Shown piece by piece: positions 6,275 to 64,000 of a DNA stretch of 64,000 bases. The stretch's first letter is position 1; each line of letters opens with the position of its first letter. Below the pieces are notes generated by a model. The model did not search any database. It saw only the letters and a program-made list of their open reading frames with translations, and had not been told where the DNA came from. The position numbers and the translations under genes were made by a program. This DNA is from Mayamaea pseudoterrestris (Eukaryota; Bacillariophyta; Bacillariophyceae; Sellaphorales; Sellaphoraceae), in contig BROI01000005.1 of NCBI GenBank assembly GCA_027923505.1, positions 62,001-126,000 on the forward strand, written 5' to 3'.

Positions 6275-6337
6275 TACTATATTCATAAATTTGTTGGAAA
6301 ATTATTTTGCATGGTGTGCAGCAAACTAGAAGGATTA

Positions 6338-9467: not shown

Positions 9468-9525
9468 GTGCAACGAGGTTTGGCTACTGTTTACGTAAAC
9501 ATGGATCATTACGCATATAATATAT

Positions 9526-35327: not shown

Positions 35328-35374
35328 GTGGTACGGCACGCTTGGCACTTGGCGCGTCTGCGAGTTTCTTCTTG

Positions 35375-35466
35375 TGTCGCACAGCAACTACATGACGTCA
35401 TTACTGATGACGTCACTGACCGTTACGAACGACGGACAGAAATCGTTGCGCTGTTTAAGGGCTCTC
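35375..35466 (-). repeat. MULE right terminal inverted repeat (92 bp)
   Basis: Perfect inverted copy of 32140-32231. Its two TGACGTCA palindromes lie at 35393-35400 and 35408-35415, 65-90 bp upstream of the transposase ATG, so they could act in its promoter. Confidence 0.95.
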
Positions 35467-41700: not shown

Positions 41701-42813
41701 AAAAACCACACACGTACTAGTAAGTAGCAGCTCAATATCCGGATCTGGGTACACTGCCTCCTCCGTAAAGCCCTCATCATAGCGAATCGTCATTTTGACT
41801 TCCGTCCGACGCTTCTTCTTTGCCTTGGCGTCCACAGTCGCTGCACCATCATCGGCAGCCACAATGGTCCCATTAATATAGACACTGCGCTCTAGTCGAA
41901 CCTTGACTCGCATGCCAACTTGAGGAAGCAGCTTGCGCGACGAGGAGGACTTTGTAGCATTACCGCCATTGTGGGCACTATAGTCGGCAAGCTCGAGCGG
42001 CGTGGCGCTGAGCGGCGGGGCGTGTACGTGCGGATCAAAGGCATGGTCATCGTCGTGCCCATTCTCATCGTCAATGCCAGGTCCCCATACAATGCGAAAG
42101 AGCGGTCCGTCAACTTTGGGTTCAAACTTGCGACCATCCAGTATCGAGCATCGCAGCTTGAGCGAACGACCATGCGCGGGGCTAAACTCGTATCGGTCAC
42201 AGGAAAAGCCAATGGGATAGAGTGCTGCCGTTGTGCAAAAGTTGTTGTCAGCACTCGAGTCAATCAGCAAGCGCCCAAAGCTTCGAACGGTAATGTCGGC
42301 AATCGGCATGGGAAGGGATGGAACCGTTTCCTGCAACATGGCGCGGGCATCGCTTGCCGCTTCCAAGTAGAGTGGAGAAATTTGATGATGCGACAAAGAT
42401 GCAGCAGCTACCCCAGTTAAAGGTTTCTTCTTCTTGGTCTTTGTTGTTGAAGAATTACCCTTGCTTGTAGCGATTGACGACGCCTTGCTTGCTCCGCTCT
42501 TTGGGGTCGCTGGCGTTGCCTTTTTCTTCTTCTTCTTTGGCGTCGGCGCGACAATGGCAACAACGGGAACGGCTTGTATTTCTTCGTCGTCAATGTCGTC
42601 CTCATCATTGTCTGCAACCACTTCTGCGGCCGCCATGACTTCCGCATCGTCGTCATAGTCATCGCCGTCCTCGGCGGCAACGGCAATCGCGGGCGCTTCC
42701 TCGTCGTCCATCTCATCGTCGTTCAATGTTTCATGATCGTCTTCCTCCTCGTCCTCCATCACGTGATCGTCGGCCAGAGCCGCGTCTGGAGCGTCCAACA
42801 CTTCCGAAGGCAT
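35722..42813 (-). CDS. 2,287-residue chromatin protein: FYRN, Tudor-like, DDT/WHIM, bromodomain, PHD-like, Tudor
   Basis: Exons are 42813-41718, 41632-40979, 40908-36548 and 36474-35722. Introns of 85, 70 and 73 bp have GT-AG ends and consistent phases. Residues 1-130 are acidic then Lys-rich. Residues 176-250 are an FYRN domain (FSCDRYEFSPAHG, PLFRIVWGPG), followed by a Tudor-like barrel (about 298-360) and a possible FYRC remnant. A coiled coil (about 640-735) leads to a DDT domain (LRVWDFMASFGNFF, about 789-853). Residues 1236-1353 look like a bromodomain. Residues 1383-1418 resemble a PHD finger, but the usual HxxC reads NxxR. A WHIM-type motif (GRDGAGRTYWQFKG) and a C-terminal Tudor/MBT-like fold (about 2040-2100) follow. 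The DDT-WHIM-bromo-PHD set is typical of ISWI-remodeller partner subunits (BAZ/ACF1 type). The FYRN addition is unusual. Confidence 0.75.
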
Positions 42814-43588
42814 GCTTGGTCGCTACTATTGTATCAAGTCTTCAAGAAACTATGGGACTCGCCGCCAATTCGATGTTTGTAGAGTCAATGGCCGATTATA
42901 AGGTAGAAGGACAATTTTCGGCCGCGGAAGCGTGACAAGATCGAGAGCAAGTTTTATGTGGAGAATCGCCGTAGAACTCCTACCGAATCGGTCGTAGGAT
43001 CTAAAACGGCAAGCTCTTCAACACCCGAGACCTTCTCGTCGCCAATTACCAGTATTTATATGATAGTAGGATCAAGTATAGCAACAGTAATGCGCTCAAT
43101 ATGGAGTCTCGAACAAATAGGTGAATACAGTGTCACACCAACAGATGGACACACACGACAGATACGATCGACAAGCTTCGCTCCGGCAAAATGCATGATG
43201 CGTGACAAGAGCAAGCAAAAGGAGAGGCCGAGAGGAAAGCACTCGGTCGAACGAAACCTCGGAAGCCAAGATGGATTCAACCACCACGCGATTCGCCCGA
43301 TCAAGGCAGTCAAGCGCGCCGTCCGCGCTTTTTAGTGTCGCAGTGATATTGAAACGTCACGGCGTGACGTTCATGTTCTTTGAAACGGCTGGCGTGCTAA
43401 CGACACAATGTTAGCTAACAGTAAGGAACGTTTGACAATGTTGTCAAAGTACAAGATCATGCTAATTCACCACTGCTATCCAATGGCAATACCCTGCCAT
43501 ACCTTACTAGTGAGATTTGTAAATATACAGCACTATTGATAATCCTTCATGCTCAACTATAAAGTCGTGTAAAAATGTAGACTTGCGA
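42814..43588. other. Intergenic region between chromatin gene and Argonaute (copy 1)
   Basis: These 775 bp contain the promoter side of the chromatin gene and the 3' flank of the Argonaute. Several short open frames occur on both strands and none is recognisable. The same stretch recurs at 53556-54330. Confidence 0.35.
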
Positions 43589-46500
43589 CTACAAGAAAAA
43601 GGGCCGTCCAGCGTACTTTTCGTCATTCACCATCTCTCCCGAATCCGAAAACATGCCCGCCAGCTCCGCAAGCTTGTGCGCCATTTGGACCGTTGCAGGG
43701 ACCTTGATGGGACCAGTCCAATTCGGGTAGTCGTAACACTGACCGTGCGAGAGCCGCTTCAAGTCCAAGCGAACAAGGTCCTCGTCCTTTTGAATGACAG
43801 TAAAGCGGGTTGGCTTGGGAGTGCTAAATGGAGGAGCCGTGCCATTGAGATAAAAGGTTGGGTAGTTCAGCTCCTCAATGCTGTCAACCAGTGTTCCTAC
43901 GGGTGCTCCATACGTATTGCCTCCTTGCTCCACCAGAAACTTGGTTGAAATGCGCTTTTGGCAAACAATATAAGATAATGGAATCGGCTTGCTCTTGGCC
44001 TTGCCGACCACGTCACCTGCAAGGCCTTGGCGAATGCCTTCAATTTCCTCTCCCGCGTGTTGATCAAAGGCAGATTCGCCAATGCCATCGCGCCAGACAA
44101 TGACAGACTTTGGCTCCACCTTTAGCAGCCTAATGGCCTTGGAGATGGTTTCCTTCAAAGCGTCCGCGAGCTGATATTCTTGTCCGGCAATTCGTTTAAA
44201 AGGCTTTGAGTAAATGTTAGCCTTTTTCTTGTCCTTTTCATCAATGATTTCGACAATAACAGCCGCGCAAGAGGCTTTCCGTTCGCGCCTCCTAGTGGTG
44301 GCATTGTAAGCCATCGGAGCGTGAAAGACATCAACACCCAAGAATAGACACGGAAGAGGCAATTCTTTTGGAATATTCGTCCACCAAAGTCGCACTCCGC
44401 ACTTTTGGAGAATCTGGCGAGCCACTCCCTGCAAAATCTGACCGCTCTTTTTGGCGTCTGCATTTGGGCTTCCATGGGCCATCTTTTTAAAGTTGACAAA
44501 TTGAGACAAATGTCCGCCTTTTGCCAACAGCCACTTGACAATTGGATATGCTGGGTCCAAAGTTGATCTTGCCGGCCGTACAAAGTCCAAAAAGAACGTG
44601 TTGGGAGGAAGTTTTTGAGATAATTCCTGCGTCATGGCTTGCTGATGACTACCTTCGTTAACGCCAGCATCCACTATCTTCTTCGGTCTATCGCCCATGC
44701 GATAAGTGGTGCTAAATCCATTAACAAGGTTGCGAATTTGCCCGTACACTGTAATGAAGTGAAGAAGAGTTTGAGTAGGGCAAAACATCGCAAGTCAAGA
44801 CTTGATGAATTTAAAACTCACCCGCCATCGACGTCCTTTCATCAAGGCTTCTGTTGCGAAAAATGATTACATTGAGCTCATTTTCCTTCTTCGGCTGTAC
44901 CTTGAACTGAGCCTTGATGACCGTATTTCCAAAGTTACTGCCCGATACTTCAATGCCAGCGACAATCAGTTGAGGAGCAGGAACGACAGTCGCGCTCACT
45001 ACAAGCCGTCTGTCCGCAAGATTAATCCCAATCGCCGGCAGTAAGCCACTTCGGTTCCTCGTGGATTGAGCGCCGGGGATCAAAAATCTGGAAATCGCGT
45101 CAATTTCTTCGCGTCGTCGCTCAGGCTTAAAACTGGCAATCTGAGGCAAGCGCTCCTTGACTGTCGCATCGAGTTCATTTCCTGTAATTAGTTCCGGAGG
45201 TAGAAAAATGTTCTCGTTGCGTCTCCCCGGGACAGTCACCATGGGGATTGCATTTGGGTGTACGAGCTGAACACCCTTTGAGCGAAAGTACGCCGCGTGC
45301 GTAGTTCTTGTGCCAGGAATAAGAAGCGTATTAGCACTGTTACCGAAGTCGAGATCAGCAACCGTGTAGCCTGTATGTGAGCAAGATTTTGTTAGTCAAT
45401 AGCTGATCAAGAAACTATCAAGCTGAAATCGCTTTTCGTCTGTCATCATGTACGTACATCGCTTTTCCCGTGTGTAGATCACCACCTGCCCAACCCACTT
45501 GCGCCTTTCAGCGTTTTGCTCTTGCATGGTAAACTGGGTATTCCGGCCATCCGGGTTGATCTCATCTAGTAAGGATAGATTGCGTATCACCTTGGCACGG
45601 AGGTCCAGCGTGAGAACCAATGCCACCTTGCCGCCGATCCGTTGCAAGCCAAAATAGGCATCGTACGCCGGATAAATTGTGCAACCTCGCTCATCCTTTC
45701 CCTTTTCTGGATCATAATGGCGGCCGCCCCAGCGATCCAAACGCTCATCCAATGCTCGGTTCAGGAAAATGTTCACGTACGCTGTGAAAAGCTCTGGCGT
45801 CGCTGGCTCTGCGCCCACAATGCTCTGTTGAGTAACCGGTTGATGATTTGAATTACGACAGTGCTGCAAAAGTGCTTGGTTGGTTTGATAAGTAGCAGTG
45901 CAGCTTCCGCATCGATGCGAATCCAAAGCGACATCCCCAGCAGGAGTCGGGGATACTACTTGTTGAAGTAAATCAGGTGCCTTCCAGTGCTTGACTTCAA
46001 TGCACCGAATAACATCACCATTCTCGTCAATTGCCAAATCCTTTGGAAGGTCAGTTTCCTCCAACCGTGGTATTTTTCGCGCCGAGAAAAAGTAGGCTCC
46101 CTGGAACGCAACGACGCGTTTCCAATCATCCTTCTCAGCGTCGGGCATGCCACTAAAGTGATTGTCCCACAAGCCAATGCGAAACAATTGAGCGCGGCGA
46201 AAGCGGCCATCAATCGGCTTGCCACTCTTGTCCGTGCATGAAACCATGTACTGATAAAAGGAGAAGAATGGAGTCACCGTGGCTTTAATGAGATTGGTCG
46301 AAACATTGCGGATGCCGCTCAAATCAGGTCCGCGGCCGCCACTGCCACGAAAACCGCCGCCGCGTCCACCTCCGCGATCCCCTCGATCGCCGCCACCTCG
46401 TCGCTCGTAGCCGGTGCTGCTTGCTCGATCGCCTCCGCGTCCCTGATAACCTCCGCCTCCACCGCGTCCCTGATAGCCTCCTCCACCGCCACGCCCCTGA

Positions 46501-46773
46501 TAGCCACCTCCTCGATCGCCACCGCCACTGCGATATCCTCCTTGCTGCCGGCCTCCTCCTCCATCACCTCTTGCTCCTCCACGACGTCCTCCGCCGCCGC
46601 TTCCTCGATCTGCAGTCGTAATAATGTAAATTGAGAACGTGTAAAAAGATGAGAATCTGCTGCTGCTAAACCGATCACTCAATCTTGCAATTTTGCCGCC
46701 TCCAGCAAAGCAACTCACCACCACCACCTCCTCCTCGTCCATAGTCACGTCTTCCTCCTCCTCGTCCCGACAT
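43589..46773 (-). CDS. Piwi-clade Argonaute with RGG N-terminus and inserted C2H2 zinc finger (copy 1)
   Basis: Exons are 46773-46719, 46609-45458, 45370-44822 and 44748-43589. Introns of 109, 87 and 73 bp have GTGAGT or GTACGT donors. The product is 971 residues. Residues 1-112 are RGG-rich with three GYQGRGGGG-type repeats. N and L1 regions follow, interrupted at residues 252-274 by a C2H2 finger (Cys252, Cys255, His268, His274; CGSCTATYQT, then LLQHCRNSNH). PAZ spans roughly 370-490 (CYTVADLDFGNSAN marks its end). The PIWI domain has Asp725 (GVDVFHAP), Glu776 (GQEYQL), Asp806 (WRDGIGES) and His943 (MAHKLAEL), spaced as in human AGO2, so slicing looks possible. NWTGPIKVPATVQMAHKLAE is Piwi-type. 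Argonautes use small RNAs for gene or transposon silencing. It is divergent from PRPF6. Confidence 0.9.
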
Positions 46774-47191
46774 GATATCAACTGTCTCGCTTCAATTTAC
46801 TGTAATTCGCCGAAAGGAATCCTTGGCTCGGAGATTTTAGGTCGTGAGGCATCGCAAGAAACGCGTTTACGTGAAAACCGAACGTGAACGTCGCCATGCG
46901 GGAGTGAAAACTCTTTTGGAAGGAACCATTTAGTACTGAAGCGACAGTCGACGAAACTTGCGTCGCGCGATGAACCATCACCATGAACGTTTCATTCGAC
47001 GGCGGCTGCAGTCTGCTCTAGCTGTAATTGCATATATTGAGCAGAAGGGATCTACTATTGCGAGTTGTTGAACAGGCCTCATAACTACCAAGAAGCAGCA
47101 ATTTCGAATCAAGTTCCTGCAGCAGCAATCAGCAATCATTAATCCATCAACTCACTACTCACTACATAACAATTAACAGCATACATACATC
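46774..47191. promoter_or_regulatory. Bidirectional upstream region of Argonaute and PRPF6 (copy 1)
   Basis: These 418 bp separate the divergent ATGs of the Argonaute (46773) and PRPF6 (47192). No repeat array or clear TATA box was seen. The PRPF6-proximal 100 bp is rich in CA and CT, like a 5' untranslated region. Repeated at 57516-57933. Confidence 0.4.
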
Positions 47192-50056
47192 ATGGCAACT
47201 CGTCCCGTGCCATCCATATTTCGCGCCAGCAATCCCCCCAAGGGCTACGTGCCAGGCCTTGGTCGCGGCGCCACTGGCTTTTCGACGCGGGGTGACGTGG
47301 GAGCCGCCGTTCCCGAGTCGGCCGTCGAAGTGAGTGGCACGGCGAGTCGATCGGCCGAAGCCAGAGCCATATTGCGCGGCGTCAATGCGCGCAACAATAA
47401 TCACGACGCTTCCGACGGCGTTACTCAAACTGGCGCCTACGATCAATTCGAAGGCTACGTGGAGAAACCAGTCGACAACGGCCAGTTTGCGGACAACGAC
47501 GAGGACGACAACCAGGCGGACCAAATCTGGGCCGCCATTGACGAGCGCATGAAGCACAAGCGCAAGCGCAAAAACGAAACGGCCAATGAGAATGGTCAAG
47601 TATCGGCGCGAACGCGAATCAGCAGCAATTTTCGCGACGCCAAGGAGGCGCTCGGTGACATGACGCAGGACATGTGGGCAGCCATTCCAGATGTGCAAGG
47701 GGATGTTAGTTTGAAGCTAAAGCAGCGGCGGCGACAGGAAGCCTTTACGCCGATATCGGATTCACTGTTGGAGCAGCGGCATGAGCGAAACGCGGATGCC
47801 ACGGCGGGAAATGCGCGCATGGCTGGAACTGTTGTGGTGGACGGCACCCACACGAGCATGACCAACATGTCGGGCTTGAGCGCGGCGCGTGGAACGGTAC
47901 TGGGCATGAGTCTTGACAAGCAGCAGCAGGCGAGTGCGGCCTCGGGCTTGGCCACGACTGTTGTGGATGCGGCTGGATACTTGACAAGCTTGGCGGAAAC
48001 GTCGACTGTGGCACTGTCGGGTAACAGTGTTCAGGACATTCACAAGGCGCGACTACTGTTAAAAAGTGTTCGCGATACAAACCCAAAGCATGGACCGGGA
48101 TGGATTGCGTCGGCGCGTGTCGAGGAGGTGGCTGGAAAGTTGCTGCAAGCGCGCAAAATTATACAGGAAGCTTGTCAAGTGTGTCCGGATAATGAAGATG
48201 TTTGGCTCGAGGCGGCGCGCCTGCATCCACAAGGCAATGTGGCCAAGAGTATTTTGGCGACGGCTGTGCGGCGTATACCAGCGTCAGTCAAGTTGTTTCT
48301 GCGAGCGGTTGATATGGAACAGACTGATGCGGCGAAAAAGGCTGTGCTGCGCAAGGGGTTGGAGACGAATCCAACATCTGTCACCTTGTGGAAGGCTGCT
48401 ATTGAACTGGAAGACGCTGACAATGCACGTATCTTGCTGAGCATTGCGGTCGAAAAGGTACCACATGCCGTCGAGTTTTGGCTAGCGTTGGCTCGACTCG
48501 AGTCCTACGAGAATGCGCAAAAGATCTTGAACAAGGCGCGAAAAGCACTTGCCACGGAGCGAACCATTTGGATCGCTGCAGCTAAGCTTGAAGAATCTCA
48601 ATCTCATGATGATATTGTTGACAAGATTATAGAGCGTGCTGTGAAATCATTGCAAAAGAACGAAGCCGTGGTGACGAGAGTGCAATGGTTGCAGGAAGCA
48701 GAAAACGCCGAAGCCTCTGACGCGCCAATCACGAGTGCTGCCATTGTCAAGTACACGATTGGTATCGACGTTGATGACGAAGATCGTCAACGCACTTGGG
48801 CGGATGACGCAAAATCTTGTTTGGCGCGTGGATCTGTGGCAACTGCTAGAGCCATCCTTTCGCATGCACTGTCAGTCTTTCCTACGAAGCGCAGCTTTTG
48901 GATGCAGGCCGTAGAACTCGAGCGGAAACATGGGACGGCTACTACGTTGGACGAGGTACTCGCAGCAGCGAGCGAGCGTCAACCGAATGTGGAAATCTTT
49001 TGGCTACTGCGGGCGAAGGAACAGTGGCTAGCCGGAAATGTCGACAAGGCTCGGGAGGTGCTTACGGAAGCATTTAAAGCAAACCCAGAATCTGAAGCTG
49101 TTTGGCTTGCAGCTGCAAAATTGGAGTGGGAGACTGGCGAACTAGAGCGCGCACGCGTCTTGCTGCAGAGGGCAAGGGAGCGAGCGCCGACAGATCGAGT
49201 GTTTATGAAGTCAGCACTCTTTGAACGACAGCATCACAACTACGAGGCTGCCCTACACTTGATTGACGAAGGCATTACAAAGTACCCTCAATTCGCGAAG
49301 CTTTATTGTATGGGTGGCCAAATATGCTCTGATGATCTTGCTAAGAATAAGAAAAGTCTTGACCGAGCAAGAAGATTTTACCAGCGTGGGTTGGAAGAAT
49401 GTCCGACCTCGACGGTGCTTTGGATCTTGGCGAGTAGACTTGAAGAGCGTTCAGCAACATTCACACCCGACGATAATGCAAATCCAGGTGTGGGCCCAAC
49501 AAAAGCCAGAAGTCTACTGGAACTTGCCCGTTTGAAGATCCCGAAGAGTCCGGAGCTTTGGATCGAAGCGATTCGTTTGGAACGTCGGAATGGCAACGCA
49601 AAGCTCGCTGAGACACTCATGGCTCGTGCACTTCAAGATTGTCCACAGTCAGGGCTGCTGCTCGCTGAGAATATATACACTGCACCCCGCGTTGAACAGA
49701 AATCCAAGTCATCTGACGCAGTCAAGCGTTGCCCGGAGGACCCGCTCGTCATTGTTGCTGTTGCTTCGTTGTTTGCGTCAGAGCGCAAGACGGACAAGGC
49801 AAGAAAATGGTTCGATCGAGCCGTCATTTTGAATCCGGACCTGGGAGACTCCTGGGCTCGATTCTACGCGTTTGAACTCACTTCAGGAAGTTTGGAGGAG
49901 CAGCAAAAAGTGAAGGAACGATGCGTCGCCGCTGAACCAAAGCACGGCGAGATTTGGACTAGCCTCTCTAAAGCAATGGAGAATTTGTCAAAAAACACTG
50001 GAGAAATACTCGAGCTAGCATCCAAAGCGGTAACATCGTATAATAGGCTTCACTGA
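47192..50056 (+). CDS. PRPF6: Pre-mRNA splicing factor PRPF6/Prp6 (copy 1)
   Basis: This single exon encodes 954 residues (human PRPF6 is 941). PRPF6 bridges U5 and U4/U6 in the tri-snRNP of the spliceosome. Residues 1-150 form the PRP1 N-terminal domain, opening with NPPKGYVPGLGRGATGFSTR and including DDNQADQIWAAIDERMKHKR. From about residue 265 the protein consists of HAT/TPR-type helical repeats (for example GPGWIASARVEEVAGKLLQA, VWLEAARL, IWIAAAKLEE, VWLAAAKLEWETGELERARV) through to the end. The ATG at 47192 gives the conserved start. The copy at 57934 encodes the same protein. Confidence 0.93.
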   Translation: MATRPVPSIFRASNPPKGYVPGLGRGATGFSTRGDVGAAVPESAVEVSGTASRSAEARAILRGVNARNNNHDASDGVTQTGAYDQFEGYVEKPVDNGQFADNDEDDNQADQIWAAIDERMKHKRKRKNETANENGQVSARTRISSNFRDAKEALGDMTQDMWAAIPDVQGDVSLKLKQRRRQEAFTPISDSLLEQRHERNADATAGNARMAGTVVVDGTHTSMTNMSGLSAARGTVLGMSLDKQQQASAASGLATTVVDAAGYLTSLAETSTVALSGNSVQDIHKARLLLKSVRDTNPKHGPGWIASARVEEVAGKLLQARKIIQEACQVCPDNEDVWLEAARLHPQGNVAKSILATAVRRIPASVKLFLRAVDMEQTDAAKKAVLRKGLETNPTSVTLWKAAIELEDADNARILLSIAVEKVPHAVEFWLALARLESYENAQKILNKARKALATERTIWIAAAKLEESQSHDDIVDKIIERAVKSLQKNEAVVTRVQWLQEAENAEASDAPITSAAIVKYTIGIDVDDEDRQRTWADDAKSCLARGSVATARAILSHALSVFPTKRSFWMQAVELERKHGTATTLDEVLAAASERQPNVEIFWLLRAKEQWLAGNVDKAREVLTEAFKANPESEAVWLAAAKLEWETGELERARVLLQRARERAPTDRVFMKSALFERQHHNYEAALHLIDEGITKYPQFAKLYCMGGQICSDDLAKNKKSLDRARRFYQRGLEECPTSTVLWILASRLEERSATFTPDDNANPGVGPTKARSLLELARLKIPKSPELWIEAIRLERRNGNAKLAETLMARALQDCPQSGLLLAENIYTAPRVEQKSKSSDAVKRCPEDPLVIVAVASLFASERKTDKARKWFDRAVILNPDLGDSWARFYAFELTSGSLEEQQKVKERCVAAEPKHGEIWTSLSKAMENLSKNTGEILELASKAVTSYNRLH

Positions 50057-50232
50057 CAGTAGTTAAGGGCTTGTTATTGTACATTCTGTAAGTCTATCTA
50101 TTGCAGATTGTATTCAGCCTCATCGACGTGATGAGGTCCGAGAAAGCAGCCAGTATCGAACAGTAGCGACAATCAGGCCTTTGTCGTACATGTTAAGACA
50201 GCAAAATTTTGACACGCTATCGCAAACCCTCA

Positions 50233-51823
50233 TCATGCAGTCGATTGCTTTCCTTGCGGCAAAATGTTCCTCATTTGCACTGACGGCTGTGGCAAAAAGC
50301 TGGACTTTTCATCTTCATTCGCACTATTATTGCTATATTGATTCGATGACTGCCGCATATTACCTTGCTTAAAATTCTCCCATTCGATTCGAAGCAGATT
50401 CCAAATCGCTCGTCGAAACACTTCTAGAAACTGCGTACACAATACAAAGGAATCGGCGCTTGGAAATATTCGATGGTAGAACCGCAGCATCCACGAGAAT
50501 CTCAACACCGAGTCCGCAATGAGAATAATGGCGCTCATTGCCACGCCGTATCGTAACCTTGGCCGGAGCCAAATGTGCCAACACTTTCGTTGTGGCGCCT
50601 TGGAGGGAGCGCACAGTGTACTTATTGGACTCTTTTGCATCATGCCCCAATCATGGACAATGTCCCTGGTGGTGGTAAAGCAGTTTTGTCGTCAGATGTC
50701 GCATGTCCTCGACTTGGTGAACCGTTTCAAACAACCACCGGCACACACGAGCATTATGAATTACTCACCAGTACAATGCATATAGTGTATTAATCACCAG
50801 CAGCAGTATCAGATACTTTTCCAATTTTTCGGCTCGCTTTGGATCAATCGTCTTTTGGTAGGCACTCAAACTGAGCGGAAAGACGGAAGTGGCATACTTG
50901 AGCGCGTTGGCCAAGTGCGTGAGTCGCTTGTGAAAGTCGTGCGAAACCTTTGGCTGAAGCTTGCAGTAGCTCCACATGACCAAACACTGGCGGGCGCGAA
51001 TCAAAAACGGAACCGCGGCGCATGCCGTTGGAATGAGAATGTTGTAGGGCGATGGAGGCACCGGGTGTGGATAGTGACTCAGTAAATGAAAGAGCATGCC
51101 CCAGTCAAAGAAAACCTTGGAGAGCGAGCACATGGCATCGGCAAAAAACACGTCAACGAATGGTACTGGTCGAAGGGCATCCGTAATGACGCAGGAGCAA
51201 CGAGGATTGACTAGTTCAAAGCATCGTTGCAGTACAATGACCGAAGCCTTTCGCAGCCACCGCGTTGACGGCAGTGGAAATACAACGGCAAAGGTGACAA
51301 CACCATAAAACGCCAAGACGGCCCCAAGCTGATTGCCTCCAAGTACATCAATCCAGACAAAATAGGTGGAATGCAAGAGAAACAGCAGCGACATGGAGAA
51401 CCAAACGAGTTTATCCCACGTAACGGCAGCATTGGCGACTTCCGGCGACTCTAACTCCTCATCCTCGTAGTAGTACTCCTCATCGTCGGATGCATACTCC
51501 AAGGCCTTTCCAATTTCGCCGTTCGAGTTGCTCCTCAGTATGGAATCATTCTGTATGATACTTGATTCCGTCCCTCGATGCCTCTTGCCGCTATTATGAT
51601 CCGACTGTGACTGTGACGATGAAAGCTCATTCTCCTTGGCTTCCAGCAGCAACACATCATGCTTGAGCACCTTGGCGTAATTAATGCCAAACATGCGATA
51701 GTAAAAAATGTTCATGCCCCATAGTGCCACGGAAGCAATGAGAACGGTCGGGCTCCGCATCATGGCGTGGGCAGGCCCCGAGCCATTGCCAAAAATTTCT
51801 CCCACCTCCTGCGTGGCGGACAT
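50233..51823 (-). CDS. EXS-domain membrane protein, ERD1-like (copy 1), two exons
   Basis: Exon 1 is 51823-50769 and exon 2 is 50665-50233. The 103-bp intron has GTGAGT/CACCAG ends, giving 495 residues. The EXS domain shared by XPR1, SYG1 and ERD1 is clear: MNIFYYRMFGINYAKVL near the start, ITDALRPVPFVDVFFADAMC, then HLANALKYATSVFPL. The splice junction restores YALYWDIVHDWGMM, and SVLRFSWMLRF and EVFRRAIWNLLRIEWENF follow. There is no SPX domain, so it resembles ERD1, a Golgi protein implicated in phosphate recycling and retention of glycosyltransferases, more than XPR1. About six to eight membrane helices are visible, with an acidic cytosolic loop (residues 65-130). Divergent from the MYND gene. 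Confidence 0.8.
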
Positions 51824-52373
51824 GGTTGTTACTGAGGTTGTGAAACTGAGACACTACTAAAGACTTGGCGATCTGGACTTTTCTCTTATTAGCTTCGTTC
51901 AATAACGGATTAAAAGTATCTCCCTGTGAATTTTTAATGGCTCTTGAAGTTGATTGATGGTTGATGGTTTGCGTTTACTGTGCTGATATTGATCGCTCGT
52001 TCAGCAGCAAGAAGCGGAGTGACGAACACGACTATGCTCCGTCACCAAGGTAAGCGAGGAGCTCAATTAAAAAACTTGTAGTAAGCTTAGTCGCGAGCCA
52101 ATTGTAGTTGGAGGGGGAAGGGCAGATTCCCATGGTCGTCGAGGCGCGCGAGGTGGAAAGCCGTTTTCGTCGCGAGAGCGTTTTCATCCCACGCCAGCAA
52201 TCGTGTACCGGTACGATAATCGGCGTCGTACCGTTACAAAATCGTCTTACGGTAGTCAAAATAGAATTCGAATCGTGATCGAGATCTTTGCTGCGACAGC
52301 TTGCTTCGAATAGAAGCAACTTGGATCATTATCTGCCCCAAAACAAAGTTTGCTCTCTCTCTGCAATTGAACA
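51824..52373. promoter_or_regulatory. Shared upstream region of EXS gene and MYND gene (copy 1)
   Basis: These 550 bp lie between the divergent ATGs of the EXS gene (51823) and the MYND gene (52374). A short inverted repeat, GTACCGGTAC, lies at about 52204-52213. No coding content was recognised. The region recurs at 62566-63115. Confidence 0.35.
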
Positions 52374-52637
52374 ATGGCTTCACGCGAGTACTACGATATC
52401 TTGAAACAGGCAAAAATCCACATGGATAAGCACGAGCACCGCCAGGCAGCCGACGTGTTTTGGAACTCCTTTTGCGCCTGCCCCTCACATTGGTCGCTTG
52501 GTCGGTACGATATCTTTACCTACTATACGGAGATTTTGATTGACGGCCGCGTCCAGCCTACTCACAATGATGTTGAGAACCTGCGCACCATCATCGGCAG
52601 CCACAATGGTCCCATTAATATAGACACTGCGCTCTAG
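52374..52637 (+). pseudogene. Truncated 5' fragment of the MYND-finger gene at the duplication junction
   Basis: The first 71 codons are those of the complete gene at 63116. At 52585/52586 the sequence switches to reverse-strand exon 1 of the chromatin gene, adding 16 unrelated residues (TIIGSHNGPINIDTAL) before a stop. The MYND finger and the rest of the protein are absent. It retains the promoter, so a short chimeric transcript is possible. It converges with the truncated chromatin gene, and the two overlap. Confidence 0.85.
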
Positions 52638-53555: not shown

Positions 53556-54330
53556 GCTTGGTCGCTACTATTGTATCAAGTCTTCAAGAAACTATGGGAC
53601 TCGCCGCCAATTCGATGTTTGTAGAGTCAATGGCCGATTATAAGGTAGAAGGACAATTTTCGGCCGCGGAAGCGTGACAAGATCGAGAGCAAGTTTTATG
53701 TGGAGAATCGCCGTAGAACTCCTACCGAATCGGTCGTAGGATCTAAAACGGCAAGCTCTTCAACACCCGAGACCTTCTCGTCGCCAATTACCAGTATTTA
53801 TATGATAGTAGGATCAAGTATAGCAACAGTAATGCGCTCAATATGGAGTCTCGAACAAATAGGTGAATACAGTGTCACACCAACAGATGGACACACACGA
53901 CAGATACGATCGACAAGCTTCGCTCCGGCAAAATGCATGATGCGTGACAAGAGCAAGCAAAAGGAGAGGCCGAGAGGAAAGCACTCGGTCGAACGAAACC
54001 TCGGAAGCCAAGATGGATTCAACCACCACGCGATTCGCCCGATCAAGGCAGTCAAGCGCGCCGTCCGCGCTTTTTAGTGTCGCAGTGATATTGAAACGTC
54101 ACGGCGTGACGTTCATGTTCTTTGAAACGGCTGGCGTGCTAACGACACAATGTTAGCTAACAGTAAGGAACGTTTGACAATGTTGTCAAAGTACAAGATC
54201 ATGCTAATTCACCACTGCTATCCAATGGCAATACCCTGCCATACCTTACTAGTGAGATTTGTAAATATACAGCACTATTGATAATCCTTCATGCTCAACT
54301 ATAAAGTCGTGTAAAAATGTAGACTTGCGA
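53556..54330. other. Intergenic region, copy 2
   Basis: Duplicate of 42814-43588, with the same content and no recognised feature. Confidence 0.35.
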
Positions 54331-57300
54331 CTACAAGAAAAAGGGCCGTCCAGCGTACTTTTCGTCATTCACCATCTCTCCCGAATCCGAAAACATGCCC
54401 GCCAGCTCCGCAAGCTTGTGCGCCATTTGGACCGTTGCAGGGACCTTGATGGGACCAGTCCAATTCGGGTAGTCGTAACACTGACCGTGCGAGAGCCGCT
54501 TCAAGTCCAAGCGAACAAGGTCCTCGTCCTTTTGAATGACAGTAAAGCGGGTTGGCTTGGGAGTGCTAAATGGAGGAGCCGTGCCATTGAGATAAAAGGT
54601 TGGGTAGTTCAGCTCCTCAATGCTGTCAACCAGTGTTCCTACGGGTGCTCCATACGTATTGCCTCCTTGCTCCACCAGAAACTTGGTTGAAATGCGCTTT
54701 TGGCAAACAATGTAAGATAATGGAATCGGCTTGCTCTTGGCCTTGCCGACCACGTCACCTGCAAGGCCTTGGCGAATGCCTTCAATTTCCTCTCCCGCGT
54801 GTTGATCAAAGGCAGATTCGCCAATGCCATCGCGCCAGACAATGACAGACTTTGGCTCCACCTTTAGCAGCCTAATGGCCTTGGAGATGGTTTCCTTCAA
54901 AGCGTCCGCGAGCTGATATTCTTGTCCGGCAATTCGTTTAAAAGGCTTTGAGTAAATGTTAGCCTTTTTCTTGTCCTTTTCATCAATGATTTCGACAATA
55001 ACAGCCGCGCAAGAGGCTTTCCGTTCGCGCCTCCTAGTGGTGGCATTGTAAGCCATCGGAGCGTGAAAGACATCAACACCCAAGAATAGACACGGAAGAG
55101 GCAATTCTTTTGGAATATTCGTCCACCAAAGTCGCACTCCGCACTTTTGGAGAATCTGGCGAGCCACTCCCTGCAAAATCTGACCGCTCTTTTTGGCGTC
55201 TGCATTTGGGCTTCCATGGGCCATCTTTTTAAAGTTGACAAATTGAGACAAATGTCCGCCTTTTGCCAACAGCCACTTGACAATTGGATATGCTGGGTCC
55301 AAAGTTGATCTTGCCGGCCGTACAAAGTCCAAAAAGAACGTGTTGGGAGGAAGTTTTTGAGATAATTCCTGCGTCATGGCTTGCTGATGACTACCTTCGT
55401 TAACGCCAGCATCCACTATCTTCTTCGGTCTATCGCCCATGCGATAAGTGGTGCTAAATCCATTAACAAGGTTGCGAATTTGCCCGTACACTGTAATGAA
55501 GTGAAGAAGAGTTTGAGTAGGGCAAAACATCGCAAGTCAAGACTTGATGAATTTAAAACTCACCCGCCATCGACGTCCTTTCATCAAGGCTTCTGTTGCG
55601 AAAAATGATTACATTGAGCTCATTTTCCTTCTTCGGCTGTACCTTGAACTGAGCCTTGATGACCGTATTTCCAAAGTTACTGCCCGATACTTCAATGCCA
55701 GCGACAATCAGTTGAGGAGCAGGAACGACAGTCGCGCTCACTACAAGCCGTCTGTCCGCAAGATTAATCCCAATCGCCGGCAGTAAGCCACTTCGGTTCC
55801 TCGTGGATTGAGCGCCGGGGATCAAAAATCTGGAAATCGCGTCAATTTCTTCGCGTCGTCGCTCAGGCTTAAAACTGGCAATCTGAGGCAAGCGCTCCTT
55901 GACTGTCGCATCGAGTTCATTTCCTGTAATTAGTTCCGGAGGTAGAAAAATGTTCTCGTTGCGTCTCCCCGGGACAGTCACCATGGGGATTGCATTTGGG
56001 TGTACGAGCTGAACACCCTTTGAGCGAAAGTACGCCGCGTGCGTAGTTCTTGTGCCAGGAATAAGAAGCGTATTAGCACTGTTACCGAAGTCGAGATCAG
56101 CAACCGTGTAGCCTGTATGTGAGCAAGATTTTGTTAGTCAATAGCTGATCAAGAAACTATCAAGCTGAAATCGCTTTTCGTCTGTCATCATGTACGTACA
56201 TCGCTTTTCCCGTGTGTAGATCACCACCTGCCCAACCCACTTGCGCCTTTCAGCGTTTTGCTCTTGCATGGTAAACTGGGTATTCCGGCCATCCGGGTTG
56301 ATCTCATCTAGTAAGGATAGATTGCGTATCACCTTGGCACGGAGGTCCAGCGTGAGAACCAATGCCACCTTGCCGCCGATCCGTTGCAAGCCAAAATAGG
56401 CATCGTACGCCGGATAAATTGTGCAACCTCGCTCATCCTTTCCCTTTTCTGGATCATAATGGCGGCCGCCCCAGCGATCCAAACGCTCATCCAATGCTCG
56501 GTTCAGGAAAATGTTCACGTACGCTGTGAAAAGCTCTGGCGTCGCTGGCTCTGCGCCCACAATGCTCTGTTGAGTAACCGGTTGATGATTTGAATTACGA
56601 CAGTGCTGCAAAAGTGCTTGGTTGGTTTGATAAGTAGCAGTGCAGCTTCCGCATCGATGCGAATCCAAAGCGACATCCCCAGCAGGAGTCGGGGATACTA
56701 CTTGTTGAAGTAAATCAGGTGCCTTCCAGTGCTTGACTTCAATGCACCGAATAACATCACCATTCTCGTCAATTGCCAAATCCTTTGGAAGGTCAGTTTC
56801 CTCCAACCGTGGTATTTTTCGCGCCGAGAAAAAGTAGGCTCCCTGGAACGCAACGACGCGTTTCCAATCATCCTTCTCAGCGTCGGGCATGCCACTAAAG
56901 TGATTGTCCCACAAGCCAATGCGAAACAATTGAGCGCGGCGAAAGCGGCCATCAATCGGCTTGCCACTCTTGTCCGTGCATGAAACCATGTACTGATAAA
57001 AGGAGAAGAATGGAGTCACCGTGGCTTTAATGAGATTGGTCGAAACATTGCGGATGCCGCTCAAATCAGGTCCGCGGCCGCCACTGCCACGAAAACCGCC
57101 GCCGCGTCCACCTCCGCGATCCCCTCGATCGCCGCCACCTCGTCGCTCGTAGCCGGTGCTGCTTGCTCGATCGCCTCCGCGTCCCTGATAACCTCCGCCT
57201 CCACCGCGTCCCTGATAGCCTCCTCCACCGCCACGCCCCTGATAGCCACCTCCTCGATCGCCACCGCCACTGCGATATCCTCCTTGCTGCCGGCCTCCTC

Positions 57301-57515
57301 CTCCATCACCTCTTGCTCCTCCACGACGTCCTCCGCCGCCGCTTCCTCGATCTGCAGTCGTAATAATGTAAATTGAGAACGTGTAAAAAGATGAGAATCT
57401 GCTGCTGCTAAACCGATCACTCAATCTTGCAATTTTGCCGCCTCCAGCAAAGCAACTCACCACCACCACCTCCTCCTCGTCCATAGTCACGTCTTCCTCC
57501 TCCTCGTCCCGACAT
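54331..57515 (-). CDS. Piwi-clade Argonaute with inserted C2H2 zinc finger (copy 2)
   Basis: Second copy, with exons 57515-57461, 57351-56200, 56112-55564 and 55490-54331. It encodes the same 971 residues as the gene at 43589-46773, including the RGG stretch, zinc finger, PAZ and DEDH residues. The only difference noted is a silent Tyr codon (TAT to TAC, plus-strand base 54712). Both promoter and 3' flank are included in the duplicated block, so both copies should be expressed if the duplication is real. Confidence 0.88.
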
Positions 57516-57933
57516 GATATCAACTGTCTCGCTTCAATTTACTGTAATTCGCCGAAAGGAATCCTTGGCTCGGAGATTTTAGGTCGTGAGGCATCGCAAG
57601 AAACGCGTTTACGTGAAAACCGAACGTGAACGTCGCCATGCGGGAGTGAAAACTCTTTTGGAAGGAACCATTTAGTACTGAAGCGACAGTCGACGAAACT
57701 TGCGTCGCGCGATGAACCATCACCATGAACGTTTCATTCGACGGCGGCTGCAGTCTGCTCTAGCTGTAATTGCATATATTGAGCAGAAGGGATCTACTAT
57801 TGCGAGTTGTTGAACAGGCCTCATAACTACCAAGAAGCAGCAATTTCGAATCAAGTTCCTGCAGCAGCAATCAGCAATCATTAATCCATCAACTCACTAC
57901 TCACTACATAACAATTAACAGCATACATACATC
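57516..57933. promoter_or_regulatory. Bidirectional upstream region of Argonaute and PRPF6 (copy 2)
   Basis: Duplicate of 46774-47191. Confidence 0.4.
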
Positions 57934-60798
57934 ATGGCAACTCGTCCCGTGCCATCCATATTTCGCGCCAGCAATCCCCCCAAGGGCTACGTGCCAGGCC
58001 TTGGTCGCGGCGCCACTGGCTTTTCGACGCGGGGTGACGTGGGAGCCGCCGTTCCCGAGTCGGCCGTCGAAGTGAGTGGCACGGCGAGTCGATCGGCCGA
58101 AGCCAGAGCCATATTGCGCGGCGTCAATGCGCGCAACAATAATCACGACGCTTCCGACGGCGTTACTCAAACTGGCGCCTACGATCAATTCGAAGGCTAC
58201 GTGGAGAAACCAGTCGACAACGGCCAGTTTGCGGACAACGACGAGGACGACAACCAGGCGGACCAAATCTGGGCCGCCATTGACGAGCGCATGAAGCACA
58301 AGCGCAAGCGCAAAAACGAAACGGCCAATGAGAATGGTCAAGTATCGGCGCGAACGCGAATCAGCAGCAATTTTCGCGACGCCAAGGAGGCGCTCGGTGA
58401 CATGACGCAGGACATGTGGGCAGCCATTCCAGATGTGCAAGGGGATGTTAGTTTGAAGCTAAAGCAGCGGCGGCGACAGGAAGCCTTTACGCCGATATCG
58501 GATTCACTGTTGGAGCAGCGGCATGAGCGAAACGCGGATGCCACGGCGGGAAATGCGCGCATGGCTGGAACTGTTGTGGTGGACGGCACCCACACGAGCA
58601 TGACCAACATGTCGGGCTTGAGCGCGGCGCGTGGAACGGTACTGGGCATGAGTCTTGACAAGCAGCAGCAGGCGAGTGCGGCCTCGGGCTTGGCCACGAC
58701 TGTTGTGGATGCGGCTGGATACTTGACAAGCTTGGCGGAAACGTCGACTGTGGCACTGTCGGGTAACAGTGTTCAGGACATTCACAAGGCGCGACTACTG
58801 TTAAAAAGTGTTCGCGATACAAACCCAAAGCATGGACCGGGATGGATTGCGTCGGCGCGTGTCGAGGAGGTGGCTGGAAAGTTGCTGCAAGCGCGCAAAA
58901 TTATACAGGAAGCTTGTCAAGTGTGTCCGGATAATGAAGATGTTTGGCTCGAGGCGGCGCGCCTGCATCCACAAGGCAATGTGGCCAAGAGTATTTTGGC
59001 GACGGCTGTGCGGCGTATACCAGCGTCAGTCAAGTTGTTTCTGCGAGCGGTTGATATGGAACAGACTGATGCGGCGAAAAAGGCTGTGCTGCGCAAGGGG
59101 TTGGAGACGAATCCAACATCTGTCACCTTGTGGAAGGCTGCTATTGAACTGGAAGACGCTGACAATGCACGTATCTTGCTGAGCATTGCGGTCGAAAAGG
59201 TACCACATGCCGTCGAGTTTTGGCTAGCGTTGGCTCGACTCGAGTCCTACGAGAATGCGCAAAAGATCTTGAACAAGGCGCGAAAAGCACTTGCCACGGA
59301 GCGAACCATTTGGATCGCTGCAGCTAAGCTTGAAGAATCTCAATCTCATGATGATATTGTTGACAAGATTATAGAGCGTGCTGTGAAATCATTGCAAAAG
59401 AACGAAGCCGTGGTGACGAGAGTGCAATGGTTGCAGGAAGCAGAAAACGCCGAAGCCTCTGACGCGCCAATCACGAGTGCTGCCATTGTCAAGTACACGA
59501 TTGGTATCGACGTTGATGACGAAGATCGTCAACGCACTTGGGCGGATGACGCAAAATCTTGTTTGGCGCGTGGATCTGTGGCAACTGCTAGAGCCATCCT
59601 TTCGCATGCACTGTCAGTCTTTCCTACGAAGCGCAGCTTTTGGATGCAGGCCGTAGAACTCGAGCGGAAACATGGGACGGCTACTACGTTGGACGAGGTA
59701 CTCGCAGCAGCGAGCGAGCGTCAACCGAATGTGGAAATCTTTTGGCTACTGCGGGCGAAGGAACAGTGGCTAGCCGGAAATGTCGACAAGGCTCGGGAGG
59801 TGCTTACGGAAGCATTTAAAGCAAACCCAGAATCTGAAGCTGTTTGGCTTGCAGCTGCAAAATTGGAGTGGGAGACTGGCGAACTAGAGCGCGCACGCGT
59901 CTTGCTGCAGAGGGCAAGGGAGCGAGCGCCGACAGATCGAGTGTTTATGAAGTCAGCACTCTTTGAACGACAGCATCACAACTACGAGGCTGCCCTACAC
60001 TTGATTGACGAAGGCATTACAAAGTACCCTCAATTCGCGAAGCTTTATTGTATGGGTGGCCAAATATGCTCTGATGATCTTGCTAAGAATAAGAAAAGTC
60101 TTGACCGAGCAAGAAGATTTTACCAGCGTGGGTTGGAAGAATGTCCGACCTCGACGGTGCTTTGGATCTTGGCGAGTAGACTTGAAGAGCGTTCAGCAAC
60201 ATTCACACCCGACGATAATGCAAATCCAGGTGTGGGCCCAACAAAAGCCAGAAGTCTACTGGAACTTGCCCGTTTGAAGATCCCGAAGAGTCCGGAGCTT
60301 TGGATCGAAGCGATTCGTTTGGAACGTCGGAATGGCAACGCAAAGCTCGCTGAGACACTCATGGCTCGTGCACTTCAAGATTGTCCACAGTCAGGGCTGC
60401 TGCTCGCTGAGAATATATACACTGCACCCCGCGTTGAACAGAAATCCAAGTCATCTGACGCAGTCAAGCGTTGCCCGGAGGACCCGCTCGTCATTGTTGC
60501 TGTTGCTTCGTTGTTTGCGTCAGAGCGCAAGACGGACAAGGCAAGAAAATGGTTCGATCGAGCCGTCATTTTGAATCCGGACCTGGGAGACTCCTGGGCT
60601 CGATTCTACGCGTTTGAACTCACTTCAGGAAGTTTGGAGGAGCAGCAAAAAGTGAAGGAACGATGCGTCGCCGCTGAACCAAAGCACGGCGAGATTTGGA
60701 CTAGCCTCTCTAAAGCAATGGAGAATTTGTCAAAAAACACTGGAGAAATACTCGAGCTAGCATCCAAAGCGGTAACATCGTATAATAGGCTTCACTGA
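57934..60798 (+). CDS. PRPF6: Pre-mRNA splicing factor PRPF6/Prp6 (copy 2)
   Basis: Second copy, with the same 954-residue translation as the gene at 47192-50056 and the same flanks. A second gene for an essential tri-snRNP scaffold is unusual, because complex subunits are normally kept at single dosage. This makes both a very recent duplication and an assembly artefact plausible. Confidence 0.92.
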   Translation: MATRPVPSIFRASNPPKGYVPGLGRGATGFSTRGDVGAAVPESAVEVSGTASRSAEARAILRGVNARNNNHDASDGVTQTGAYDQFEGYVEKPVDNGQFADNDEDDNQADQIWAAIDERMKHKRKRKNETANENGQVSARTRISSNFRDAKEALGDMTQDMWAAIPDVQGDVSLKLKQRRRQEAFTPISDSLLEQRHERNADATAGNARMAGTVVVDGTHTSMTNMSGLSAARGTVLGMSLDKQQQASAASGLATTVVDAAGYLTSLAETSTVALSGNSVQDIHKARLLLKSVRDTNPKHGPGWIASARVEEVAGKLLQARKIIQEACQVCPDNEDVWLEAARLHPQGNVAKSILATAVRRIPASVKLFLRAVDMEQTDAAKKAVLRKGLETNPTSVTLWKAAIELEDADNARILLSIAVEKVPHAVEFWLALARLESYENAQKILNKARKALATERTIWIAAAKLEESQSHDDIVDKIIERAVKSLQKNEAVVTRVQWLQEAENAEASDAPITSAAIVKYTIGIDVDDEDRQRTWADDAKSCLARGSVATARAILSHALSVFPTKRSFWMQAVELERKHGTATTLDEVLAAASERQPNVEIFWLLRAKEQWLAGNVDKAREVLTEAFKANPESEAVWLAAAKLEWETGELERARVLLQRARERAPTDRVFMKSALFERQHHNYEAALHLIDEGITKYPQFAKLYCMGGQICSDDLAKNKKSLDRARRFYQRGLEECPTSTVLWILASRLEERSATFTPDDNANPGVGPTKARSLLELARLKIPKSPELWIEAIRLERRNGNAKLAETLMARALQDCPQSGLLLAENIYTAPRVEQKSKSSDAVKRCPEDPLVIVAVASLFASERKTDKARKWFDRAVILNPDLGDSWARFYAFELTSGSLEEQQKVKERCVAAEPKHGEIWTSLSKAMENLSKNTGEILELASKAVTSYNRLH

Positions 60799-60974
60799 CA
60801 GTAGTTAAGGGCTTGTTATTGTACATTCTGTAAGTCTATCTATTGCAGATTGTATTCAGCCTCATCGACGTGATGAGGTCCGAGAAAGCAGCCAGTATCG
60901 AACAGTAGCGACAATCAGGCCTTTGTCGTACATGTTAAGACAGCAAAATTTTGACACGCTATCGCAAACCCTCA

Positions 60975-62565
60975 TCATGCAGTCGATTGCTTTCCTTGCG
61001 GCAAAATGTTCCTCATTTGCACTGACGGCTGTGGCAAAAAGCTGGACTTTTCATCTTCATTCGCACTATTATTGCTATATTGATTCGATGACTGCCGCAT
61101 ATTACCTTGCTTAAAATTCTCCCATTCGATTCGAAGCAGATTCCAAATCGCTCGTCGAAACACTTCTAGAAACTGCGTACACAATACAAAGGAATCGGCG
61201 CTTGGAAATATTCGATGGTAGAACCGCAGCATCCACGAGAATCTCAACACCGAGTCCGCAATGAGAATAATGGCGCTCATTGCCACGCCGTATCGTAACC
61301 TTGGCCGGAGCCAAATGTGCCAACACTTTCGTTGTGGCGCCTTGGAGGGAGCGCACAGTGTACTTATTGGACTCTTTTGCATCATGCCCCAATCATGGAC
61401 AATGTCCCTGGTGGTGGTAAAGCAGTTTTGTCGTCAGATGTCGCATGTCCTCGACTTGGTGAACCGTTTCAAACAACCACCGGCACACACGAGCATTATG
61501 AATTACTCACCAGTACAATGCATATAGTGTATTAATCACCAGCAGCAGTATCAGATACTTTTCCAATTTTTCGGCTCGCTTTGGATCAATCGTCTTTTGG
61601 TAGGCACTCAAACTGAGCGGAAAGACGGAAGTGGCATACTTGAGCGCGTTGGCCAAGTGCGTGAGTCGCTTGTGAAAGTCGTGCGAAACCTTTGGCTGAA
61701 GCTTGCAGTAGCTCCACATGACCAAACACTGGCGGGCGCGAATCAAAAACGGAACCGCGGCGCATGCCGTTGGAATGAGAATGTTGTAGGGCGATGGAGG
61801 CACCGGGTGTGGATAGTGACTCAGTAAATGAAAGAGCATGCCCCAGTCAAAGAAAACCTTGGAGAGCGAGCACATGGCATCGGCAAAAAACACGTCAACG
61901 AATGGTACTGGTCGAAGGGCATCCGTAATGACGCAGGAGCAACGAGGATTGACTAGTTCAAAGCATCGTTGCAGTACAATGACCGAAGCCTTTCGCAGCC
62001 ACCGCGTTGACGGCAGTGGAAATACAACGGCAAAGGTGACAACACCATAAAACGCCAAGACGGCCCCAAGCTGATTGCCTCCAAGTACATCAATCCAGAC
62101 AAAATAGGTGGAATGCAAGAGAAACAGCAGCGACATGGAGAACCAAACGAGTTTATCCCACGTAACGGCAGCATTGGCGACTTCCGGCGACTCTAACTCC
62201 TCATCCTCGTAGTAGTACTCCTCATCGTCGGATGCATACTCCAAGGCCTTTCCAATTTCGCCGTTCGAGTTGCTCCTCAGTATGGAATCATTCTGTATGA
62301 TACTTGATTCCGTCCCTCGATGCCTCTTGCCGCTATTATGATCCGACTGTGACTGTGACGATGAAAGCTCATTCTCCTTGGCTTCCAGCAGCAACACATC
62401 ATGCTTGAGCACCTTGGCGTAATTAATGCCAAACATGCGATAGTAAAAAATGTTCATGCCCCATAGTGCCACGGAAGCAATGAGAACGGTCGGGCTCCGC
62501 ATCATGGCGTGGGCAGGCCCCGAGCCATTGCCAAAAATTTCTCCCACCTCCTGCGTGGCGGACAT
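60975..62565 (-). CDS. EXS-domain membrane protein, ERD1-like (copy 2), two exons
   Basis: Second copy, with exons 62565-61511 and 61407-60975, encoding the same 495 residues as the gene at 50233-51823. In this copy the divergent neighbour is the complete MYND gene, so this is the ancestral arrangement on the right side. Confidence 0.8.
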
Positions 62566-63115
62566 GGTTGTTACTGAGGTTGTGAAACTGAGACACTACT
62601 AAAGACTTGGCGATCTGGACTTTTCTCTTATTAGCTTCGTTCAATAACGGATTAAAAGTATCTCCCTGTGAATTTTTAATGGCTCTTGAAGTTGATTGAT
62701 GGTTGATGGTTTGCGTTTACTGTGCTGATATTGATCGCTCGTTCAGCAGCAAGAAGCGGAGTGACGAACACGACTATGCTCCGTCACCAAGGTAAGCGAG
62801 GAGCTCAATTAAAAAACTTGTAGTAAGCTTAGTCGCGAGCCAATTGTAGTTGGAGGGGGAAGGGCAGATTCCCATGGTCGTCGAGGCGCGCGAGGTGGAA
62901 AGCCGTTTTCGTCGCGAGAGCGTTTTCATCCCACGCCAGCAATCGTGTACCGGTACGATAATCGGCGTCGTACCGTTACAAAATCGTCTTACGGTAGTCA
63001 AAATAGAATTCGAATCGTGATCGAGATCTTTGCTGCGACAGCTTGCTTCGAATAGAAGCAACTTGGATCATTATCTGCCCCAAAACAAAGTTTGCTCTCT
63101 CTCTGCAATTGAACA
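62566..63115. promoter_or_regulatory. Shared upstream region of EXS gene and MYND gene (copy 2)
   Basis: Duplicate of 51824-52373; here it serves the complete MYND gene. Confidence 0.35.
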
Positions 63116-64000
63116 ATGGCTTCACGCGAGTACTACGATATCTTGAAACAGGCAAAAATCCACATGGATAAGCACGAGCACCGCCAGGCAGCCGACGTGT
63201 TTTGGAACTCCTTTTGCGCCTGCCCCTCACATTGGTCGCTTGGTCGGTACGATATCTTTACCTACTATACGGAGATTTTGATTGACGGCCGCGTCCAGCC
63301 TACTCACAATGATGTTGAGAACCTGCGAAGCGTACTGGACGACGAAACGGAAGTTGGCATCTTTCGAATCAACGCTGGAACGATTTTGGCGAGTGTTTCC
63401 GGCAACGCGTTCAACGAGTTTGAGGATGCGGCTGACTACTTTCGACAGGCAATCAGTCTAGCTGATGCCGTGTCCAAGAAGGAGCTGCGGAAATGCAAAG
63501 GAATTTTCATCAACCCTGCCCATGACGCTCAATCAATCGTGCAGGACATGCGAGACAACTGTGCGACGAATCTAAAGGGCATGGAGAATCCCATAACTGT
63601 GCCAGTTATGCGCGGCGATGCGACGGAACGACCTCCACCATTAAAGATGCAAACGTCTGACGGAATTTCGTTTGAAGTCCAGCCGGATTATGTGGTGTTT
63701 CCAAACGTGGCTGACATGGAAGGACGACTCGCTACGGGCGGCAAGGAGTGTGATTTTTGCAAAAAGACGCTTGCCCAACTTGGCATTCCTAGGCTCAGCA
63801 CGTGCACACGATGCAAAATGACATACTATTGCTCCAAAGAGTGTCAGAAAGCTGCATGGAAGGCAGGCCACAAGACTGCTTGCCGCGAGCCGAATCAACG
63901 TGTACGAGGCGACGTTATGCAATTAAAGGAGCATGGCAATGAACTTTCGCAAGTTGTCACCTTGGTGGAGGAGCAGCCGAATAAGCAGTGGAAAGTCACG
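63116..64000 (+). CDS. MYND zinc-finger protein, complete 5' part (3' end outside window)
   Basis: The frame starts at ATG 63116 and stays open to the right edge (295 residues visible). Residues 1-200 are helical and TPR-like (YYDILKQAKIHMDKHEHRQA, then AADYFRQAISLADAVSKKEL). Residues 212-256 are a MYND finger: CDFCKKTL, STCTRCKMTYYCSKECQ, then WKAGHKTAC. All expected Cys and His ligands are present. MYND fingers bind proline-rich partner peptides, and such proteins often act in transcription or protein quality control. No SET domain is seen in the visible part, which may lie beyond the edge. The first 71 codons are also present as the fragment at 52374. Confidence 0.75.
   Translation, partial: MASREYYDILKQAKIHMDKHEHRQAADVFWNSFCACPSHWSLGRYDIFTYYTEILIDGRVQPTHNDVENLRSVLDDETEVGIFRINAGTILASVSGNAFNEFEDAADYFRQAISLADAVSKKELRKCKGIFINPAHDAQSIVQDMRDNCATNLKGMENPITVPVMRGDATERPPPLKMQTSDGISFEVQPDYVVFPNVADMEGRLATGGKECDFCKKTLAQLGIPRLSTCTRCKMTYYCSKECQKAAWKAGHKTACREPNQRVRGDVMQLKEHGNELSQVVTLVEEQPNKQWKVT

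Follow-up and report, generated by a model that had tools for sequence, protein, structure and literature searches.

A 10,742-bp unit stands twice, head to tail, in the window, the whole 64,000-nucleotide stretch of DNA analyzed here (C5:62,001-126,000, on contig 5 of a 30.6-Mb, 41-contig diatom assembly; other contigs are numbered likewise). The assembly is assigned to a diatom through its light-harvesting proteins: the best matches of one from C19 are fucoxanthin chlorophyll a/c proteins, with Fcpb7 (7vd6) first and none identical, and one from C10 gave a less distinct list led by 9vfj chains. A search for rbcL found none. Judging from the sequence, we consider it slightly likelier that this doubling was made by the assembly (probability roughly 0.52) than that it is a real young duplication.

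Exact comparison of copy 1 (41,843-52,585) with copy 2 (52,585-63,327) found one mismatch and no indel in 10,743 columns, in agreement with the initial annotation, which described a near-identical head-to-tail duplication at an offset of 10,742 bp. That annotation placed the repeat at 41,844-63,327; its right end was correct, and its left start was 1 bp late. An ungapped comparison at the same lag, in 200-bp windows, gave 17-34% identity outside the doubling and 99.5-100% inside it, edge windows excepted. Base 52,585 is common to both copy ends, giving a 1-bp overlap at the seam (52,585-52,586), which carries no inserted bases and no N, and whose 26-base spanning sequence is unique in the window. 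The sole difference, A at 43,970 against G at 54,712, is a synonymous transition (Tyr TAT/TAC) in the Piwi exon, bearing out the earlier remark that almost no mutations had accrued. The first 2.1 kb and last 8.6 kb of the unit are free of mismatches, and the tips and seam are likewise clean. The doubling is the single direct match when the window is compared with itself by BLAST, and a search of the whole window with 20-base seeds listed no further direct repeat of at least 100 bp. A 1.5-kb probe from the unit and the Piwi search each place it at two sites in the assembly. The copies are direct and adjacent with one exact seam, as in a tandem segmental duplication. As for the signs of a false duplication, a gap between the copies, which PMC9516828 treats as a primary characteristic and we do not regard as strictly defining, is absent, the window having no N. 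Two further signs, unpolished sequence at the join and a repeat border at a breakpoint, would support a false duplication without defining it; the joined tip here bears no raw or error-rich sequence. Among the sampled loci, which make up a minor part of the genome, the 201 bp around each breakpoint match the window alone, and no repeat border was found there. The window also holds an inverted repeat with 107-nt arms (32,140-32,246 and 35,360-35,466), 94% complementary and 3.1 kb apart.

Three complete genes are doubled, as the initial annotation had held, and their predicted long frames translate identically in both copies. The Argonaute gene (minus strand; 43,589-46,796 and 54,331-57,538) has three long frames encoding a Gly/Arg-rich N-terminus, a PAZ and a Piwi part. 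Its PAZ match, at 27.2 bits, lies slightly below the Pfam cut-off of 28.8. When the Piwi part is compared with Piwi-like protein 1 (9s0z), the presumed catalytic Asp, Asp and His residues are aligned. Both Piwi-domain matches listed for the whole assembly are the window's two Argonaute copies. A 959-aa frame encodes the PRPF6/Prp1 splicing factor (plus strand; 47,177-50,056 and 57,919-60,798), and two frames encode an EXS-family membrane protein (minus strand; 50,233-51,853 and 60,975-62,595). Searches that reach only close relatives, and from which near records were possibly excluded, found no PRPF6 relative in the genome-contig or viral-contig collections and no match to the seam sequence in the viral-contig collection.

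Two further genes, which the initial annotation does not bring up, are present in part at the ends of the unit and cut at the seam: a FYRN-domain gene on the left and a MYND-finger gene on the right. The outer FYRN frame is unbroken over the left breakpoint (41,686-42,822, minus strand, 378 aa). In copy 2 the seam cuts this frame (52,485-53,564, minus strand), leaving its first 327 residues followed by 32 foreign ones read antisense from the MYND gene. Likewise, the outer MYND frame is unbroken over the right breakpoint and runs out of the window (63,113-64,000, plus strand), and its seam-cut counterpart in copy 1 (52,371-52,637, plus strand) has 72 residues of its own and 16 foreign ones before a stop. 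Unbroken outer frames are expected alike from a real tandem duplication and from two overlapping contig ends. Because the outer copies keep both cut frames intact, a real duplication would cost the cell little, which speaks in its favor.

To sample the rest of the assembly, we used the opening 10 kb of each of 21 contigs (C1-C21), another two 10-kb stretches from C5, and the matches of eight families across the genome: light-harvesting (at least 53), Piwi (at least 2), Helicase_C (at least 101), Pkinase (at least 156), RRM (at least 83), WD40 (at least 149), AAA (at least 20) and Mito_carr (at least 147). Pairs in the family lists were spotted by eye, the scored candidates being 119 of 229 for Pkinase, 150 of 312 for WD40 and 19 of 106 for AAA. 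Near-identical pairs on one contig were confirmed among the family matches for C5, C24, C2, C1 and C7; the AAA matches met the C24 pair again, and the listed Helicase_C and Mito_carr matches contain no same-contig pair of equal score. Pairs of at least 500 bp at 99.5% identity were found in three of 24 contiguous stretches (294 kb), namely in the window and on C20 and C14; the other 21 stretches have none, which tells against an artefact. The pair at the start of C14 (984-4,367 and 4,372-7,755; 3,384 bp each, no mismatch, four bases between the copies) was not counted, its end being a dispersed repeat also present on C1, C2, C7 and C15. A light-harvesting pair of equal score on C3 (224,808 and 263,782) was also set aside, as the 1-kb stretches are alike over only about 350 bases and form no doubling.

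Several other observations came from the same lists. Near-equal scores on one contig mark candidate recent or false duplications on C2 (347,688 and 368,433), C6 (75,880 and 115,588) and C1 (1,875,063 and 1,892,111). Two pairs of light-harvesting genes, each made up of almost identical members from separate contigs (C7:278224 with C9:440723, and C10:293194 with C11:103612), may be segmental duplications or leftover haplotype pieces. A pair of helicases with equal or nearly equal scores is split between C8 and C10. Mitochondrial carriers at C1:2603532 and C25:4080 score equally, the latter lying 4 kb from its contig start and possibly representing a leftover haplotype end. Of the 21 contig starts, that of C11 is the only one whose initial 300 bases show telomere repeats (CCCTAA).

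This sparse sampling yielded four further adjacent head-to-tail doublings, on C1, C2, C20 and C24, with 0-2 shared bases at the seam. On C20, positions 247-5,233 equal 5,234-10,220 (4,987 bp, no mismatch, blunt seam), and the doubling starts 247 bp from the contig end. The 181-bp satellite there has a unit spacing of 180-181 bp on either side and of 284 bp at the seam, so its phase is broken. Since unequal exchange between satellite units is expected to preserve phase, the C20 seam would reflect end joining or a false join. An array on C4 (1-10,000) is about 95% identical to this satellite, and part of the C17 start is also related to it. The C2 doubling (484,834-504,673 and 504,673-524,512; offset 19,839, 1-bp overlap) shows no mismatch in about 1.55 kb compared. 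The 423 bp left of its left breakpoint are identical to a dispersed repeat on C14, which ends exactly there; borders of dispersed repeats are common break sites of assemblies. The C1 doubling has an offset of 820 bp and a 2-bp overlap, with no mismatch in 822 columns. The C24 doubling was predicted from one edge and then found, with 410,559-423,054 equal to 423,055-435,550 and a blunt seam. In about 1.45 kb compared of its 12.5 kb there are three mismatches, every one of them within the final 40 bp ahead of the seam. They comprise one G/C swap and two A/T swaps, the latter being in P. tricornutum the rarest class at 4 of 146 base substitutions (PMC6604790). We count this cluster toward an artefact because polishing reads could not have crossed a false join. 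The C2 and C24 doublings were probed inside rather than compared over their full length.

With the window, there are five exactly adjacent doublings, of 0.8, 5.0, 10.7, 12.5 and 19.8 kb with overlaps of 2, 0, 1, 0 and 1 bp, respectively. Their seams are all blunt or almost so, the parts compared are close to perfectly identical, and no length is favored. Random joins at equal base frequencies would give shares of 0.56, 0.28 and 0.11 for overlaps of 0, 1 and 2 bases, and the five overlaps (0, 0, 1, 1, 2) are as given by random joins. A habit of the assembly and a process of duplication are the two causes that would each account for all five together.

A sixth case, on C7, is of another kind. 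Here a direct duplicate lies about 12.2 kb away from its partner, with copy 2 starting at 596,289. The match of copy 1 ends between 590.1 and 594.0 kb, so that the copies are not adjacent; the spacer between them is unrelated and measures at least 2.3 kb. The opening 1.25 kb of copy 2 differ from copy 1 by 9-16% (about 13%; 24-44 difference letters per 250 bp), the next 250 bp by 7% (19 letters), and the following sequence by 0-6 letters per 250 bp. The density of differences peaks at 1.0-1.25 kb and not at the tip. Over 3,513 columns the differences comprise 132 deletions, 18 insertions and 59 substitutions, and about 1.5 kb (C7:596289-597790) stand out as deletion-rich, differing by 7-16% in each 250 bp, and probably mark a join within the contig that was left unpolished. 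Copy 1 has an open WD40 frame, which 1-2-base indels disrupt in copy 2. There is no N at the join, and a reverse-transcriptase (RVT_2) frame, which we take to be copia-type, ends 75 bp ahead of copy 2. The locus looks like a contig that ended in a repeat and was joined without N to the raw, unpolished tip of the contig that follows. A real duplicate that has decayed, or a haplotype that has diverged, is conceivable and is disfavored by the drop in difference from 16% to below 1% within 0.75 kb. The C7 duplicate is very probably false, and gapless false joins are thus probably present in this assembly.

If the doubling in the window was made by the assembly, two assembled pieces, each with the 10.7-kb stretch, would have been placed end to end without N rather than overlapped; contig 5 would then read flank-unit-unit-flank where the chromosome has one unit. 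Joined haplotypes fit less well than an overlap of two contig ends that was left uncollapsed, or than an error in the graph. We infer that the window's doubling may share its cause with the other doublings in the assembly, which, like the repeat, its seam and the C7 duplicate, are directly observed. The artefact gains weight because other gapless doublings exist in the same assembly, one of them (C7) very probably false. On balance the evidence from C7, C20, C24 and the repeat border at C2 leans toward assembly, and the clean tips of the C5 and C1 doublings and the in-gene breakpoints on C5 lean away from it. Against an artefact, neither the tips of the window's copies nor the seam show errors, and the breakpoints, unlike the repeat border at C2, match no other sampled stretch. 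The C7 pattern, noisy and with its spacer, differs from that of the window and shows no more than that gapless false joins are probable. Overlap assemblers seldom produce blunt doublings without a spanning read, and the seams would also fit tandem duplication by end joining or by a replication-based route. Furthermore, published false duplications within a single scaffold are usually accompanied by a gap (PMC9516828), and the window has none. The initial annotation had offered a choice between a recent duplication and an assembler artefact. This choice stands, with the other gapless doublings, C7 among them, adding weight to the artefact and the joined haplotypes given as its first example disfavored.

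A real, very young tandem duplication, its probability somewhat short of even on sequence grounds, would probably be heterozygous in a diploid, clonal diatom and would have arisen by end joining or replication restart with a 1-bp overlap. It would have doubled the only detected Argonaute, PRPF6 and the EXS gene and left two broken gene ends at the seam. The clean tips and seam, the breakpoints, both inside genes and away from known repeats, and the intact doubled genes in both copies are all in its favor. If mutation proceeds as in P. tricornutum (4.77e-10 per site and generation; PMC6604790), a figure borrowed here from another diatom, one difference is expected at about 98,000 generations (95% range 2,500-544,000). 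PMC9849192 cites gene-duplication rates between about 1e-8 (Dictyostelium) and about 1e-6 or higher, per gene and generation; therefore several young duplications per genome would be ordinary. Against a real duplication stand the company of the very probable false join on C7 and the out-of-phase satellite doubling on C20, the clustered mismatches at the C24 seam and the start of the C2 doubling at a repeat border.

Two haplotypes of one locus laid side by side would also give a false duplication, and diatoms are diploid. Heterotype duplication is named the main source of false duplications in the vertebrate assemblies of PMC9516828, where a table has one older assembly (hummingbird) with more homotype. 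Two joined haplotypes should diverge by roughly the genome's heterozygosity. A P. tricornutum strain has 239,478 SNPs in 25,613,219 positions, a heterozygosity of 0.93% (PMC6604790). By that value, which is not this genome's own, about 100 differences are expected where 10,743 columns show one, and the copies fall short of heterotype divergence. Only a stretch that had lost its heterozygosity would fit. The single difference led us to reject joined haplotypes as the main reading, and the initial annotation's example is disfavored unless the stretch is homozygous; we regard it as very improbable. An extrachromosomal circle of the 10.7-kb unit, whose reads gave the seam and led the assembler to insert a second copy, would have exactly such a seam and no flanks, and is still less credible; it would need to be invoked at several loci.

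If the doubling is an artefact, the assembly miscounts its genes (two Argonautes, two PRPF6), and the remaining exact head-to-tail doublings in it should be checked before recent gene gains are claimed. If it is real, a duplication has been caught almost at birth in which the one Argonaute detected in this diatom was doubled, and duplication would, to judge by the other doublings, be an active process. The BRCA1/Pol-theta tandem-duplicator pattern of BRCA1-deficient cells consists of numerous non-recurrent duplications, scattered and about 10 kb long, whose homology is short or absent. Our sparse sampling met five doublings with exactly adjacent copies, of 0.8-19.8 kb, which would invite comparison with this pattern if they are real. 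It is unlikely that all five are real and recent and reflect such a genome-wide process; were it so, the doubled Argonaute could alter small-RNA dosage.

The survey of false duplications that we take to be Ko et al. 2022 (PMC9516828) describes side-by-side duplicated genes in one contig with almost no divergence and other doubtful duplicates in the same assembly, all of which recur here. The window differs in that its seam has no N gap and its copies lack haplotype-like divergence. Young tandem segmental duplications, as in gene copy-number mutations (PMC9849192), share with the window their direct orientation, kilobase size, exact breakpoints inside genes and near identity, and no difference from them is visible in the sequence. 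Likewise, the BRCA1/polymerase-theta duplications of C. elegans and tumors (PMC7368036) are scattered, non-recurrent and head to tail, as are the doublings here with their 0-2-bp overlaps at five seams. That paper reports hardly any mutations beside the breaks, whereas at C24 the 40 bp next to the seam contain three mismatches.
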